DNA from: Pseudomonadota bacterium
GTDB lineage: Bacteria > Pseudomonadota > Alphaproteobacteria > Rhizobiales > Xanthobacteraceae
Assembly (NCBI GenBank): GCA_023431725.1
Contig: JAEYVN010000070.1
Coordinates: 1 to 11,965 of the forward strand
DNA length: 11,965 nt
Reading direction: 5' to 3'
Position 1 is the stretch's first letter; every line of letters starts with the position of its first letter. Below the pieces are notes generated by a model. It worked only from the letters and a program-made list of their open reading frames with translations. It had not been told where the DNA came from and searched no databases. Of this stretch, positions 991 to 11,965 are shown piece after piece. The position numbers and the translations under genes are program-made.

Positions 991-1065
991 GAGGCCCAGG
1001 AGGTTTTCGTTTTTCGCGCGTGACAATCGCGACGTGAATGACCGAAAATCCAAGACAAATTGATA

Positions 1066-1084
1066 CCGATGTGCTCAACATCGG
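1066..1084. promoter_or_regulatory. Inverted repeat upstream of the TRAP genes, candidate operator
   Basis: CCGATGT (1066-1072) and ACATCGG (1078-1084) are perfect 7-bp arms around a 5-bp spacer. The repeat sits 34 bp before the dctP start, in the gap after the IclR gene. It could be the binding site of that regulator or a hairpin in the dctP leader. A TTGATA (1060-1065) directly abuts it and resembles a -35 box, but no good -10 box follows at the right distance. Confidence 0.45.
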
Positions 1085-1118
1085 AAAACAAAATGAAAAT
1101 TTAGAATGGGGGAAACTG

Positions 1119-2192
1119 ATGTCTAGCAACTTTAAATTCTACAACAGCGCCCGCTGGCTCGGCACGTCGATTGCCACTCGCGCATCGTTGCTATCCAGCG
1201 CGGTGGCGCTTGCTCTGCCGCTTTTGGCAGGCAATGCAGCGGCCGAAACCGTTCTGAAATTCGCTGCGACGGTGCCACTCGAAAATGCCACCGCTCAGCG
1301 CGTATTCAAGCCCTGGGCGGATAAGGTCAACGAGGAAGCAAAGGGCGAGTTCAGGATTCAGGTTTACGGACTCGAACTTGCGAACAGCCGCAATGTGTGG
1401 GAGCGGACGCTCAACGGGGTCGTCGATATCGGCTGGGCGCTCCACGGCACGGTCGGGCTTCCATTCCCGAAGACATCGGTCATCACGCTGCCGGCGCTGG
1501 TTGAAGACACGCAGGCAGGCGCAGCCTCTTCCGCGCTGTGGAAACTCTACGAGAGCGGACTCCTCGCCGACGAGTACAAGAACATAAAGGTGCTCGGTCT
1601 TGTCGCCCTGCCCGTTCAGGGCCTCGCCTCGAAGTCCAAGGTCGCCAAGCTCGACGACATCAAGGGTCAAAAGATCCGGTCCGCCGACAAGCTGTCTGGC
1701 GACATCGCCTCGGCGCTCGGCGGCTCGCCGATCTCCCTGTCGGCGACCGAGGTTTATCAGGCGCTCAGCCGCGGCGTCGTCGATTCCGCGATCGCAAACT
1801 GGATCATGATGGGTGCATTCCGCCTGACCGAAGTCACGAACGACTATGTGACCGGCGTCTCGCTCGGCGCGCCGTCGGGCTTTATCGTGATGAATCCGAA
1901 GGCTTACGAAAAGCTTTCGGAAAAGGGCAAACAGATCCTGGCGAAACACACCGGCGCCGGCATGTCACGTCAGATCGGCAACGGGCTGGAACAGCTCTCC
2001 CACAACCTGCGTGACTCGATCGTCAAGAACAACGGCAAGTACAACGTGGTGGAAGTTGGCCCTGAGGAAAAGGCGCGCTGGACCAAGGCGCTCGAGACTG
2101 CGCAGGCCAAGTGGGTCGCAGATACGCCAGACGGCAAGAAGGTCTTGGAGCAATTCAAGATCGAGTTCGACAAGGCGAAGGCCGAGAAATAA
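1119..2192 (+). CDS. dctP: TRAP transporter periplasmic substrate-binding protein (DctP family)
   Basis: The product is a 357-residue TRAP-T solute-binding protein that captures an organic acid in the periplasm and delivers it to the membrane subunit encoded next. Residues 1-42 form a signal peptide: a basic N region, a hydrophobic stretch ALALPLLAG and a likely cleavage at NAAA|ET. The mature part begins VLKFAATVPLENATAQ, typical of the family. R187 in the KIRSADK segment matches the conserved arginine that salt-bridges the ligand carboxylate. N227, in VDSAIANW, falls where the family has a ligand-contacting asparagine. An earlier in-frame ATG exists at 1038, but ATG 1119 has GGGGGA a few bases upstream and places the signal peptide properly. 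The permease gene follows after 21 bp. The ligand cannot be named. Confidence 0.93.
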   Translation: MSSNFKFYNSARWLGTSIATRASLLSSAVALALPLLAGNAAAETVLKFAATVPLENATAQRVFKPWADKVNEEAKGEFRIQVYGLELANSRNVWERTLNGVVDIGWALHGTVGLPFPKTSVITLPALVEDTQAGAASSALWKLYESGLLADEYKNIKVLGLVALPVQGLASKSKVAKLDDIKGQKIRSADKLSGDIASALGGSPISLSATEVYQALSRGVVDSAIANWIMMGAFRLTEVTNDYVTGVSLGAPSGFIVMNPKAYEKLSEKGKQILAKHTGAGMSRQIGNGLEQLSHNLRDSIVKNNGKYNVVEVGPEEKARWTKALETAQAKWVADTPDGKKVLEQFKIEFDKAKAEK

Positions 2193-2213
2193 TCAGGACA
2201 AGGCCTTCGTTTC

Positions 2214-4169
2214 ATGCAGGACAGAATGCTGGCGCGCATTGAGGCCATAACCAATGCCGTAAGCCGCGTGGCCGCATTCGTCGGCGTCGTGGGAATGCTG
2301 ATCATCGGCGTTCTCACGACCCTGGACGTGATCGTCCTGCGCTCGGTCTTCAACTCGCCGATCGCGGGCTCTAACGAGTTTCTCGGAACGATCTTCGCTG
2401 TAGCGATTTCTGCCGTTCTCCTCAGCGGGCTCGTGCAACGCGCGAGCCTCGAGATCGACTTCATCAAACTCGTCGTCAGCGATCGTGTGGCAGGATGGCT
2501 GCGCATCTTCGGCCAAACCCTGTTTCTGCTGATACTTTGCCTGACCAGCTGGCAGGTCTTGGTTTATAGCCTCGAAGCTCTGAACATCGGTAAGATCACC
2601 ATCGTCCTGCAATGGCCGCTTTGGCCGTTCCTGCTGACGATTTCGTTTTTCTTCTCCCTGTATATTCCGGTCCAGGCCGTCGTGGTCCTATCGATGATTG
2701 CCGAGCATTTGCGGTCGCACCCAGCGGCCGATGCAGGTCATTCGGACCAACGCGCGAGCGACCCGCGAATTTACGCCATCTTTGCGGCCATGTTCGCAGG
2801 CGCCGTGCTGCTTGCGGCCGCGGTTTATTTCGGCACCACGGCGATGCAGCCGGTCCTGTCCAGCAACGCCACCGCCTTCTCGATTTCGATTTTCTTCCTG
2901 CTGTGGGTGCTGATCTTGCTCTTCGTCCCGATCGCCGCCGCACTCGTGATAAGCGCGCTGGTCGGCATCGGCGTTCTGATGGGTTATCCGACCGCGATGA
3001 CCATTCTCGGATCCGAGACGGTCGGCCTGATCACCAGCGAGGATCTCGCGGTATTGCCGCTGTTCATGATCATGGGCGCGCTGGCCGGCGTGGCCGGTCT
3101 TTCGTCCGACATCTATCGCCTCGCACATGCCACCTTCGCGCCATTCCGCGGCGGCCTCGCCCTTGCCAGCGTCGGAGGTTGCGCGGGCTTTGGTGCGCTG
3201 ACCGGCTCGTCCCTTGCAACCGTCGCAACCATCGGCAGCGTCGCGATCCCGGAGATGAAGCAGCGCGGTTATGCGATGCAACTGTCTACCGGCAGCATCG
3301 CCGCTGGAGGCACATTGGGACAGTTGGTCCCGCCATCCACCGCGATCGTCCTCTACGCGATCCTTGTCGAAGAATCGATCGGCCGGCTTTACATTGCCGT
3401 TCTGGTTCCGGCCGCGATCACAATCATTCTCTACGTGTTGGCTATCGTCATCTGGGTCGCGCTCAATCCGAAGATCGCGCCCGGCCGTGCCCCGTTCGAC
3501 GCGAAGGAGTTTTTCCGGGCTCTCTACGCCTGCAAAAGCGTTTTCGTGCTGTTCGGCATCGTCATCGGCGGCATCTATACCGGCCTCTTCACCGCGACCG
3601 AGGCGGCTGCAGTCGGCGCAACCCTCGCCTTCATGATCTGTGTTTACCGCGGCAAGCTGAGCAGGGCGAGCCTCGGCGAGGTGATCGGCGAAGCGACACG
3701 CTCCACGTCGATGCTCTACTTCGTCATCATCGGTGCGATGGTGATCTCATTCTTCTTCGGGACTTCGGGGCTTCCCCAGACGCTCCTCAATTCGTTAACC
3801 GGCCTGGGTCTCTCCAATCTTTCGGTAATCCTGCTTCTGATCGGCGTTTTCATCGTGCTCGGTACGATCATGGACTCCTTCGCGATCATGATCGTCACTG
3901 CCGGCATTGCATCTGCCATCGTCCAGAGCCTTGGTTACGACCCGATCTGGTGGGGCATCATGATGGTGATTCTGGTCGAACTCGGCGTTCTGACGCCGCC
4001 CTTCGGCATGAATCTCTTTGTCATGAAGGCGCTGGTCCCGGATGAACGCATGAGCACGATCTTCCGCGGCGTCATTCCGTTCATCATCGCCGACCTGTTC
4101 AAGATCGCGCTGCTGATCGCATTCCCAGCGCTGATCCTCTGGCTGCCAACACTCGCCTTCAGCCGGTGA
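2214..4169 (+). CDS. TRAP transporter fused permease, DctQ-DctM type
   Basis: The 651-residue product joins the small (DctQ, about residues 1-165, four membrane segments) and large (DctM, about 215-651, about twelve segments) TRAP membrane subunits. A hydrophilic linker (about 166-185, rich in H, D, S) and one extra membrane helix (about 188-208) connect them, as in other fused QM proteins. DctM hallmarks are visible: GGLALASVGGCAGFGALTGS from residue 313, then a PEM motif and AAGGTLGQLVPPS at 363-375, and a second half with GTIMDSFAIMIVTAG and LTPPFGMNLFVMK. It should catalyse sodium-driven uptake with the preceding binding protein. A second ATG at 2226 has AGGA 4 nt upstream and could be the true start. 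No ATPase is needed or present. Confidence 0.93.
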   Translation: MQDRMLARIEAITNAVSRVAAFVGVVGMLIIGVLTTLDVIVLRSVFNSPIAGSNEFLGTIFAVAISAVLLSGLVQRASLEIDFIKLVVSDRVAGWLRIFGQTLFLLILCLTSWQVLVYSLEALNIGKITIVLQWPLWPFLLTISFFFSLYIPVQAVVVLSMIAEHLRSHPAADAGHSDQRASDPRIYAIFAAMFAGAVLLAAAVYFGTTAMQPVLSSNATAFSISIFFLLWVLILLFVPIAAALVISALVGIGVLMGYPTAMTILGSETVGLITSEDLAVLPLFMIMGALAGVAGLSSDIYRLAHATFAPFRGGLALASVGGCAGFGALTGSSLATVATIGSVAIPEMKQRGYAMQLSTGSIAAGGTLGQLVPPSTAIVLYAILVEESIGRLYIAVLVPAAITIILYVLAIVIWVALNPKIAPGRAPFDAKEFFRALYACKSVFVLFGIVIGGIYTGLFTATEAAAVGATLAFMICVYRGKLSRASLGEVIGEATRSTSMLYFVIIGAMVISFFFGTSGLPQTLLNSLTGLGLSNLSVILLLIGVFIVLGTIMDSFAIMIVTAGIASAIVQSLGYDPIWWGIMMVILVELGVLTPPFGMNLFVMKALVPDERMSTIFRGVIPFIIADLFKIALLIAFPALILWLPTLAFSR

Positions 4170-9331: not shown

Positions 9332-9733
9332 TTACCGCCCCTTTTGCGATTCGCTGGCCAAATGCTCACGCAGGAGCCGGACGTTGCGCTTGTTGGAGCG
9401 CCAGAACACGTCGAACACATCGCCGGCGACCGGCACCGCGCCGATCACGCCGTCGACCGCAACATTGGTCAGCATGCGCGCCACCAGATGTCTCGGCGCA
9501 CCCAGCCGGCGCGCCTCATAGACGATGTAGAGCGCGAGGCCGGTGGTGATGACATCGCCGACGACCGGCGCAAATCCGAACAGACCATCGACACCGAAAC
9601 GGATTTTCGTGAACGGGATCGCAAAAGCCGTGTCGAGCAGAGCTGCCAACCGCTCGATACGCGCGAGCCGCTGAGCACGGCTCGGCGAGCGCGTGAAAGT
9701 GCCATGCAGCGTATGGGCGTATGCCGTGGTCAT
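9332..9733 (-). CDS. DUF4112 family membrane protein
   Basis: The 133-residue product matches the DUF4112 pattern: LAALLDTAFAIPFTKIRFGVDGLFGFAPVVGDVITT, then a helix (ALYIVYEARRLGAP), then RMLTNVAVDGVIGAVPVAGDVFDVFWRSNKRN. Two related GxxPxxGD segments form hydrophobic hairpins likely to sit in the membrane. The family has no established role. The start is uncertain: ATG 9733 is chosen, but ATG 9745 and GTG 9751 are in frame and none has a clear ribosome binding site. The gene is divergent from the radical SAM operon, with 206 bp between the starts, and upstream of the amidohydrolase. Confidence 0.85.
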   Translation of the reverse strand: MTTAYAHTLHGTFTRSPSRAQRLARIERLAALLDTAFAIPFTKIRFGVDGLFGFAPVVGDVITTGLALYIVYEARRLGAPRHLVARMLTNVAVDGVIGAVPVAGDVFDVFWRSNKRNVRLLREHLASESQKGR

Positions 9734-9869
9734 GGCGCAAGACATGGGCACGGGTGACTGGAATACAAGATTTCACGCAAGGGTCGACGGTGTGTCGAAT
9801 GACGTAGCGGCGAACGACGCAGAGCATCCGAGTGCGAGAAACGCCACGACGATGGAACCGTGGTTTCGC

Positions 9870-9911
9870 TTGCTTTCGCGGACCTTGCCCTTAAAAGAAC
9901 AAAACAGGAAC
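9870..9911 (+). promoter_or_regulatory. SOS (LexA) box overlapping the promoter of the radical SAM operon
   Basis: GAACAAAACAGGAAC at 9897-9911 is GAAC-N7-GAAC, the direct-repeat LexA site of alphaproteobacteria. It lies 28 bp ahead of the ATG at 9940. A possible promoter, TTGCTT (9870-9875) with TAAAAG (9892-9897, 16-bp spacing), overlaps its left half, so LexA bound there would block RNA polymerase. The downstream genes belong to families suspected in DNA repair, which supports a functional site. LexA itself is outside the window. Confidence 0.75.
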
Positions 9912-9939
9912 TTAGAGGACCGGGTGGAAGAGACATGCC

Positions 9940-11190
9940 ATGCCGCTGACGTTGCCGCAGAAGCTGGAAATTCTCGCTGACGCCGCCAAATACGATGCTT
10001 CCTGCGCATCGTCCGGCGGCACAAAACGCAATGCGCGTTCGGGTGGCATCGGATCGGTGACCGGCGCCGGCATCTGCCACGCCTATACGCCGGACGGCCG
10101 CTGCGTTTCGCTGCTGAAAATTTTGCTGACCAATTTCTGCGTTTACGACTGTGCCTATTGCGTCAGCCGACGGTCGAGCAATGTGCTGCGCGCCCGTTTC
10201 TCGGTCGAGGAAGTCGTGACGCTGACACTCGATCTCTACCGGCGCAATTGCATCGAAGGCTTATTCCTTTCGTCCGGCATTGCCCGTTCGGAAGACGACA
10301 CGATGGCCGATCTTGTCCGTGTCGCGCGCACACTGCGCGAACAGCACGGCTTTCGCGGCTATATACATCTCAAGACCATTCCCGGCGCGAGCGACGTTCT
10401 GATCGCTGAAGCCGGTCGTTATGCCGACCGGCTGTCGATCAATGTCGAATTACCGACCGATGCTGCACTGAAGGACTTCGCGCCGGAGAAGAACGCCCAG
10501 ACAATTCGCAAGGGCATGGCGATCACCCGCCTGAAGATCGACGCTGCTGAAGAGGCGAAAGCCAAGCGCGCGGGCCAGATCGGCAAGGCCAGACCACCGC
10601 GCTTTGCGCCAGCCGGTCAGTCGACGCAGATGATCGTCGGCGCCGACGCCACGCCTGACAGGACCATCCTCAGCACCACCGCCACGCTCTATGCCTCCTA
10701 TGCGCTCAAGCGCGTTTACTATTCCGCCTTTTCGCCGACCGGGCATCCGTCGCAGAAGCTCGCCGCCGCGCCTGCTCCACTCCTGCGCGAACACCGGCTC
10801 TATCAGGCCGACTGGATGCTGCGCTTCTATGGCTTCGATCTGTCGGATCTGTCGCGCGCGATGACGGAAGGGATGCTCGATCTCGAGATTGATCCCAAGC
10901 TCGCCTTCGCGCTGGCGCATCGCGAACAATTCCCCGTCGACGTCAATCGTGCCGACCGCGAAACGCTGCTGCGCGTGCCCGGACTCGGCACCCGCTCCGT
11001 CGACCGCATTATCGCATCACGCCGGTCCGGCACCTTGCGATTCGATGATATTGCGCGCCTGACGGGCGCCGTCTCGCGCGCCCGCGATTTCATCGTCACC
11101 CCGGATCACACCCCGCGCCATCTCGATACATCGCAACTTCGCGAGCGCTTTGTGCGCAAGGCCCCGGCGCAACTTTCATTGTTCGGATAG
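9940..11190 (+). CDS. Putative DNA modification/repair radical SAM protein (TIGR03916-like)
   Basis: The 416-residue product has the radical SAM motif C67-VYD-C71-AY-C74 (CX3CX2C), which binds a 4Fe-4S cluster and splits S-adenosylmethionine. The barrel follows: FSVEEVVTLTLDLYRRNCIEGLFLSSG, a SAM-contacting glycine segment, then GYIHLKTIPGASD and RLSINVELPTD. Residues about 333-385 form a helix-hairpin-helix region (VDVNRADRETLLRVPGLGTR, then IIASRRSGTLRFDDIARL), a non-specific DNA-binding element. This architecture fits the family called rSAM_link_UDG, which co-occurs with uracil-DNA glycosylase-type proteins; its reaction is unknown. GGAAGAG (9926-9932) precedes the ATG. The stop is 6 bp before the next gene, so the two form an operon, and an SOS box precedes it. 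Confidence 0.92.
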   Translation: MPLTLPQKLEILADAAKYDASCASSGGTKRNARSGGIGSVTGAGICHAYTPDGRCVSLLKILLTNFCVYDCAYCVSRRSSNVLRARFSVEEVVTLTLDLYRRNCIEGLFLSSGIARSEDDTMADLVRVARTLREQHGFRGYIHLKTIPGASDVLIAEAGRYADRLSINVELPTDAALKDFAPEKNAQTIRKGMAITRLKIDAAEEAKAKRAGQIGKARPPRFAPAGQSTQMIVGADATPDRTILSTTATLYASYALKRVYYSAFSPTGHPSQKLAAAPAPLLREHRLYQADWMLRFYGFDLSDLSRAMTEGMLDLEIDPKLAFALAHREQFPVDVNRADRETLLRVPGLGTRSVDRIIASRRSGTLRFDDIARLTGAVSRARDFIVTPDHTPRHLDTSQLRERFVRKAPAQLSLFG

Positions 11191-11196
11191 CTCGCC

Positions 11197-11965
11197 ATGT
11201 TCGCTGTTCCGCTTGCCTCCGATGCCGGTGAGGCCGATTTCCGCGACATCGCCAAGGCCTGCCTTGCGCAAATTCTCTCGCCGCACGACCTCCTGTTTAC
11301 AGCGCGGGACGAGGCCAGCCTTGTGCCAACCTTGCCGGCATCGCCTGCGGACATCGCCATCACCGTTCCGCGCAGCTATTCGGAGCTGATGCGCGACGCC
11401 ATTTGCCACAGCGCGCCGGACCGATTTGCACTGCTTTACGATGTGCTGTGGCGCATCCAGCAGGGCGAGCGCGATCTCGCCGAACGCGCGAGCGACAAGA
11501 CCGTCGCGCGACTAATCGACTATGCGCATGCGGTGCGGCGCGACATTCACAAGATGCACGCCTTCCTGCGCTTCAAGGAGCATCAGGTGGACGGCCGCAG
11601 CCTGTTCACCGCATGGTTCGAACCGCATCATCATATTCTGCGACGCGCGGTCCCGTTTTTCGTCGATCGCTTTGCCGGCATGGATTGGCTGATCGCCACG
11701 CCACGCGGCAGCGCCGTCTGGCAGGACAAGACGCGCACCTACGGCCCGCCGGCGGAAAAACCCGCCGACAACAGCGATGCCGTGCTCGATGAATTGTGGC
11801 TGACCTATTATCGCACGACCTTCAATCCGGCACGCGTGCGGCTGAAGACGATGACCAATCACATGCCGCGTCACTACTGGAACAACATGCCGGAGACGGC
11901 GCTTATTCCGGATATGGTGCTGCAGGCGGGGCAGCGCGTCACCGGGATGCTGGACATGGCCGCCG
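11197..11965 (+). CDS. DUF4130/TIGR03915-type DNA metabolism protein, C-terminus beyond window (possible UdgX fusion)
   Basis: The visible 256 residues have no stop and run off the right edge. They match the partner family of the preceding radical SAM protein (probable DNA metabolism protein, DUF4130): VPRSYSELMRDAI at 58-70, KMHAFLRFKEHQV at 119-131, AWFEPHHHILRRAVPFF at 139-155, MDWLIATPRGSAVW at 162-175, ELWLTYYRTTFNPAR at 199-213, and MPRHYWNNMPETALIPDM at 223-240. The unit ends near the window edge, and the frame is still open at residue 256. In many Alphaproteobacteria this family is fused to a UdgX-like uracil-DNA glycosylase; whether that holds here cannot be seen. Only 6 bp separate it from the upstream stop, and its ribosome binding site is weak, suggesting translational coupling. 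Confidence 0.88.
   Translation, partial: MFAVPLASDAGEADFRDIAKACLAQILSPHDLLFTARDEASLVPTLPASPADIAITVPRSYSELMRDAICHSAPDRFALLYDVLWRIQQGERDLAERASDKTVARLIDYAHAVRRDIHKMHAFLRFKEHQVDGRSLFTAWFEPHHHILRRAVPFFVDRFAGMDWLIATPRGSAVWQDKTRTYGPPAEKPADNSDAVLDELWLTYYRTTFNPARVRLKTMTNHMPRHYWNNMPETALIPDMVLQAGQRVTGMLDMAA

Follow-up and report, generated by a model that had tools for sequence, protein, structure and literature searches.

What does the radical S-adenosylmethionine (SAM) gene near the end of contig JAEYVN010000070.1 do for the Xanthobacteraceae bacterium that carries it (assembly GCA_023431725.1), and under what control is it made together with the DUF4130 gene that follows it? The window analysed here is the whole stretch of 11,965 nucleotides, and positions given below refer to it and to its forward strand unless stated otherwise. 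An earlier note, made from the sequence letters, had read the two genes as an operon behind a LexA box. We regard it as probable, if well short of certain, that they form an SOS-induced, LexA-repressed operon, whose product is a clamp-docked radical SAM repair or tolerance enzyme acting with DUF4130.

LexA-type boxes ahead of the operon

The sequence GAACAAAACAGGAAC at 9897–9911 is an exact match to the GAAC-N7-GAAC form of the LexA (SOS) box, and its end lies 28 bp before the ATG (9940) of the radical SAM gene, just as the earlier note had placed it. It is the sole exact match in the window on either strand and, taken alone, is near chance and not significant (0.47 matches expected; at least one in 74 of 200 shuffles). 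The -10 box that had been proposed to overlap the motif was not recovered by a simple sigma-70 scan, which found no promoter ahead of the gene and was limited to promoters of that type.

The weight of the box comes from its conservation. We took as loci the best 80 named relatives of the radical SAM protein (at least 80 exist), and an exact GAAC-N7-GAAC was found within 200 bp upstream of the gene in 77 of them, a count whose weight is lowered because closest relatives do not make independent samples. Twelve control spacings (2–6 and 8–14) gave 0 to 4 matches each in the same 80 upstream regions, the remainder of the loci held 10 exact boxes in 700,635 bases, and random 200-bp stretches from these loci contained the box in 50 of 20,000 draws. 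The three misses were a locus with an exact box overlapping the start codon (L002), one with a single mismatch (L078), and a Stenotrophomonas locus with none (L067).

A wider sample of 150 Pseudomonadota genomes, including the central genome G001, contained 22 that carry the operon, at least two of which (G001 and G127) are also among the 80 loci, so that the samples overlap. A GAAC/GTTC-N7 box preceded the operon in 16 of the 22, CTGT-N8-ACAG in four (G031, G054, G062 and G090), and neither in two. When the upstream regions of the 22 genomes and of L067 and L078 were scanned with other spacings, each gave 0 to 2 matches for GAAC and likewise for CTGT. The lexA gene itself was preceded by an exact GAAC/GTTC-N7 box in all 17 genomes of that type, comprising the 16 above and G008. 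LexA boxes are listed as GTTC-N7-GTTC for Caulobacter, TACTG(TA)5CAGTA for Escherichia coli and CGAAC-N4-GTTCG for Bacillus subtilis in Table 1 of PMC9578287 (papers are cited here by PMC identifier, and statements about their content apply to the extracts available).

Apart from this dependence within and between the samples, several observations weigh against LexA control. An exact CTGT-N8-ACAG precedes lexA in only two of the four genomes of the CTGT type. The operons of G102 and G082 have no box of the kinds scanned; lexA of G102 is preceded by another box, TTAGTAGTAATACTACTAA, and G082 contains no full LexA, only a UmuD-like match. The Stenotrophomonas locus lacks all three kinds of LexA box scanned, copies on Bacteroides and Gemmatirosa plasmids have no recognised box, and at L061 the DUF4130-UdgX gene lies elsewhere in the genome, with no box in the 400 bp checked. 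Another operon copy, L093, was also without any of the three kinds; it shares with L067 the upstream palindrome GTCTCA-N5-TGAGAC (1450–1466 in L093, 3962–3978 in L067), which may be part of the preceding gene or another operator.

Copies outside the Alphaproteobacteria were scanned as well. A Caballeronia plasmid copy has an exact CTGT-N8-ACAG, and a Clostridia-like locus (L139) has CGAAC-N4-GTTCG with one mismatch, a match seen in 0 of the locus's 2320 other windows. In a second Clostridia-like locus (L136) the same box is matched only with two mismatches, as it also is in 14 of 566 other 150-bp windows there. Because the motif is kept ahead of orthologues, SOS control of the operon is well supported on comparative grounds, and the induction by DNA damage that the earlier note predicted gains from it; of the six operon genomes without the GAAC/GTTC-N7 box, four have CTGT-N8-ACAG. 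LexA would then bind these boxes and repress the operon. The neighbourhood was also examined: at seven of the 80 loci (five Bradyrhizobium, one Rhizobiales metagenome-assembled genome, and Henriciella) the operon is divergent from imuA/imuB-like genes, with a box upstream of the radical SAM gene. Only at L057 was the pair tested against families: its ImuA match, at 37 bits, stays below the cut-off of 150, and its ImuB is assigned by Pfam IMS. The other calls rest on BLAST.

SOS control of such an operon is apparently already in print. COG4277 is, we presume, the TIGR03916 radical SAM family to which the window protein belongs, and the name 'Helix-hairpin-helix motif protein' carried by one of its homologues fits that identity. 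A COG1573-COG4277 'putative DNA base excision repair' operon is placed in the SOS regulon of Bacteroidetes by PMC8565304, which cites Verrucomicrobia and Alphaproteobacteria for SOS-type control of the same genes. It resembles the present operon in having two genes, a uracil-DNA glycosylase (UDG) family gene and SOS-like motifs, but in the available text it is described solely as UDG-based repair, 'radical SAM' is used there only of SplB, and DUF4130 and 'clamp' do not occur. A 'radical SAM protein', its family unstated in the extracts, is also among the LexA targets in PMC9380542 and PMC7739468. Among 5.39 million papers searched, two contain any of six family identifiers.

The radical SAM protein and its C-terminal tail

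The radical SAM gene (9940–11190, stop included) encodes 416 residues that score 544 bits against TIGR03916 (rSAM_link_UDG; NCBIfam cut-off 343.5) and also match Pfam Radical_SAM. Its AlphaFold model has a mean predicted local distance difference test (pLDDT) score of 86.8, and the closest relative with an organism name, from Pseudorhodoplanes, is 83% identical. The CX3CX2C motif of radical SAM [4Fe-4S] clusters, cited in the earlier note, is at residues 67–74 (10138–10161), and in an aligned set of 343 sequences that includes the window protein, C67 is conserved in 342 and C71 and C74 in all. Three further cysteines are kept almost as strictly, C22 in 340 sequences and C46 and C55 in 343 (codons 10003–10005, 10075–10077 and 10102–10104, thus within 10003–10104). 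From this conservation they are perhaps ligands of an auxiliary Fe-S cluster. Residues 24–56, nearly the same stretch, fall below pLDDT 50, a point on the other side, and because the stretch is disordered in the model the second cluster is left as a candidate; as far as our searches reach, it would be new. A candidate helix-hairpin-helix region, the one named in the earlier note, spans residues 317–371 (10888–11052), but both Pfam models stay just under their 27-bit curated cut-offs (PF14520, E 5.2e-5, 24.1 bits; PF12836, E 8.6e-5, 23.0 bits).

A structure search placed lipoyl synthase (LipA), biotin synthase (BioB) and MiaB among the nearest folds. These three are sulfur-inserting enzymes, and this, together with the three extra near-invariant cysteines, would suit inducible DNA marking, in which DNA bases receive a group such as sulfur from the radical SAM enzyme, with support from DUF4130. 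We consider that unlikely. A common fold proves no function, the SOS box and the imuA/imuB-like genes that lie divergent to the operon suggest a role in dealing with damage, and the uracil excision and trapping domain fused to the partner in many genomes suits removal better. Lipoyl synthase, HydE and biotin synthase are 10–14% identical to the window protein in the matches quoted, and the window protein differs from them by its added helix-hairpin-helix region and clamp tail.

A direct, SplB-like reversal of a specific ultraviolet or pyrimidine lesion we hold to be rather improbable. PMC3765255 had already connected DUF4130 with uracil DNA glycosylases and with radical SAM proteins resembling SplB; it applies the term SplB-like to the proteins associated with DUF4130 and suggests that they act on thymines, and its available text has no 'clamp'. 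SplB, a radical SAM protein too, belongs to the SOS network in several species (PMC8565304). The Clostridia-like contig L139, moreover, has an SPL-family gene at a distance of about 2.6 kb from the pair. The window protein, however, gave no SPL family match when searched against Pfam and NCBIfam (E 0.001), and SplB was not among the 50 structural matches listed, below which it and other folds may rank.

The earlier note mentions neither the three extra cysteines nor the end of the protein. The window protein terminates in QLSLFG, and residues 411–415 of 416, QLSLF (11170–11184), correspond to the beta sliding clamp-binding consensus. QL[S/D]LF is given as the commonest clamp-binding motif in PMC12309361, and such motifs are frequently C-terminal (PMC4549789). 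A relaxed form of the motif was present in the last 25 residues of 96 of 102 locus proteins, where shuffled sequences gave 7.2 of 102, and of 238 of 240 radical SAM proteins from the database, the latter being the best 120 near the window protein and the best 120 near a Psychrobacter-like query. The remaining six locus proteins end in QLALAL (two), QLGFAF, QLAFAL or QMALAL, or contain QGSLF. In the last eight residues the motif was found in 75 of the 80 relatives and in 8 of 1149 other open reading frames, and a strict form in 42 of 80 and 0 of 1149; this background consists of stop-to-stop frames of at least 200 codons, many of which are not genes, which weakens the comparison. Single distant members have a longer tail after the motif, which reads QLSIF in L136 (Bacillota), QLSFF in L139 and QLSLW in L140 (Gemmatimonadota), and L137 (Bacteroides) has the six-residue variant QLLLDF. 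Because the last block of the AlphaFold model has a mean pLDDT of 50, the QLSLF end is likely to be a free, accessible tail, and it may bind the clamp in the cell; a motif this short can, on the other hand, be conserved for other reasons.

A QLxL-type motif is shared with ImuB and other clamp-binding SOS proteins, the mycobacterial ImuB motif being QLPLWG (PMC10421592), with the difference that here it is carried by a radical SAM enzyme and not by a polymerase-family protein, and at the extreme C-terminus. Among the papers listed by our searches, none connects the TIGR03916 family with the clamp, and a predicted C-terminal beta-clamp-binding motif on this family is, as far as our searches reach, new. 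QPELF in the DUF4130-UdgX protein P0185, seen by eye, was considered as a clamp motif as well and rejected, as it is not conserved.

The DUF4130 partner and the UdgX domain

The second gene (11197–11965) begins 6 bp after the stop of the first (11190) and is cut by the window end after 256 codons. It scores 181.6 bits against TIGR03915 (cut-off 112.25) and 132.2 against PF13566 (cut-off 27), and both the spacing and the family agree with the earlier note. In 56 of 77 named relatives the two genes overlap by 1–11 bases. P0185, a 477-residue protein 96.9% identical to the window part over 256 residues, has a full UdgX domain (TIGR03914, 317.6 bits) with KRRLH present, the hallmarks of UdgX being GEQPG, an R-loop with the cross-linking His and an HPS motif; the window ends before this domain, and by this likeness the window gene is expected to continue into a UdgX-type glycosylase. 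Matches in both fold searches for DUF4130 were taken up by the UdgX domain.

In the 150 genomes TIGR03916 was over cut-off in 22 (27 at E 0.001) and TIGR03915 in the same 22, so that the co-occurrence of the two families stated in the earlier note holds without exception there. The control genome, Caulobacter vibrioides, matched TIGR03916, TIGR03915 and TIGR03914 alike. TIGR03914 was over cut-off in 21, and 17 of these are among the 22, with UdgX in one open frame with DUF4130. The note's UdgX-like glycosylase is thus often with the pair, as a fusion, and in five of the 22 (G031, G054, G082, G090 and G107) the pair is accompanied by no UdgX match over cut-off. Because the pair occurs without UdgX and the same 22 genomes carry both pair genes, the core of the system, judged by gene content, consists of the radical SAM protein and DUF4130, with UdgX as an addition. 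Such an inseparable pair with an optional UdgX is new, as far as the searches reach. The converse, UdgX without the radical SAM gene, was seen in four of the 21 (G059, G063, G079 and G147), three of which have a DUF4130 remnant (by eye; in G079 also by TIGR03915). The lone UdgX genes L142 (G063), L143 (G059) and L144 (G079) keep the C-terminal end of DUF4130 and so appear to be remnants of the fusion from which the radical SAM-DUF4130 part has been lost. In L144 the UdgX match is still preceded, at 279 bp, by an exact GAAC-N7-GAAC.

These patterns bear on the idea that the covalent adduct which the fused UdgX partner leaves on DNA is resolved by the radical SAM enzyme. The two share an operon, and resolution of the UdgX bond has only been proposed, by RecA-dependent pathways or proteases (PMC10359453). 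The idea is weakened, and in our judgement very unlikely, because radical SAM and DUF4130 occur without UdgX, in the five genomes above and in the stretches seen of the Bacteroides plasmid and two Clostridia-like loci, where DUF4130 stands alone; the four UdgX genomes without the radical SAM gene also speak against it. Mycobacterium smegmatis UdgX (PDB 6ail, 6iod and others), with solved chains of 205–229 residues, differs from the arrangement here, in which UdgX is fused behind DUF4130 in an operon with the radical SAM gene.

A relative of the radical SAM protein occurs in 158 of 72,556 plasmid records, 142 of them predicted to be non-mobilizable, which might suggest an anti-phage or mobile-element function. 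No PADLOC family matched the radical SAM protein or P0185, and of ten phage-labelled records with a relative, the two looked at were read as bacterial contigs, so that such a function seems most improbable. One of them, L139 (MT835514.1), has a purL-like gene (by eye) and, after the pair, a Rad3/DinG-like helicase; the other, L141, an 'Acinetobacter phage' contig (CAKLQH020000003.1), has annotated glyQ and glyS. The phage label of both is doubtful because bacterial housekeeping genes surround the operon, and neither was kept as a phage-borne copy. No Rad3/DinG-like helicase was found 3' of the pair in L136. Plasmid carriers are led by Phaeobacter (58) and Paracoccus (15). In the window, a DUF4112 gene (Pfam; 9332–9751, reverse strand) is divergent from the radical SAM gene, and 1038–4169 holds a TRAP transporter, with a DctP gene and then a fused DctQ-DctM gene, 3' of an IclR-type regulator gene.

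Proposed mechanism and its setting

In the explanation we favour, a clamp-docked repair or tolerance enzyme under SOS control, LexA would be cleaved after DNA damage and both proteins would be made together. The radical SAM protein would dock on the beta sliding clamp through its QLSLF tail while its helix-hairpin-helix region holds DNA, and clamp docking and DNA holding would therefore set it to work at sites of stalled replication or gap filling. The 5'-deoxyadenosyl radical may there change or reverse a blocking base lesion, a second Fe-S cluster on C22, C46 and C55 probably helping the radical chemistry, and the obligate partner DUF4130 may recognise or present the lesion. Where a UdgX-type domain is present, it would excise uracil or a related base nearby and cap the abasic site covalently, so that the strand is protected. 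DNA is taken here as the presumed substrate of the radical SAM enzyme, which may instead act on protein or RNA.

A more specific version is tentative, and we think it possible rather than probable: that the operon represents a new class of replication-coupled repair, in which a clamp-tethered radical SAM enzyme with two Fe-S clusters, together with DUF4130, applies radical chemistry directly to damaged DNA, and the fused glycosylase, by crosslinking itself to abasic sites that result or lie nearby, caps them. The precise physiological role of UdgX 'remains largely unknown' according to PMC10359453, in the available text of which 'SOS', 'radical SAM' and 'clamp' do not occur, and the radical SAM-DUF4130 pair is present in 17 of the 21 Pseudomonadota genomes with UdgX over cut-off. 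If true, a clamp-tethered radical SAM repair class would give UdgX its natural setting, and with a clamp-docked radical SAM enzyme, radical chemistry would take place at the replication fork. Concrete mutants can be designed from the gene pairing, the extra cysteines and the clamp tail, which makes the function of the family testable.
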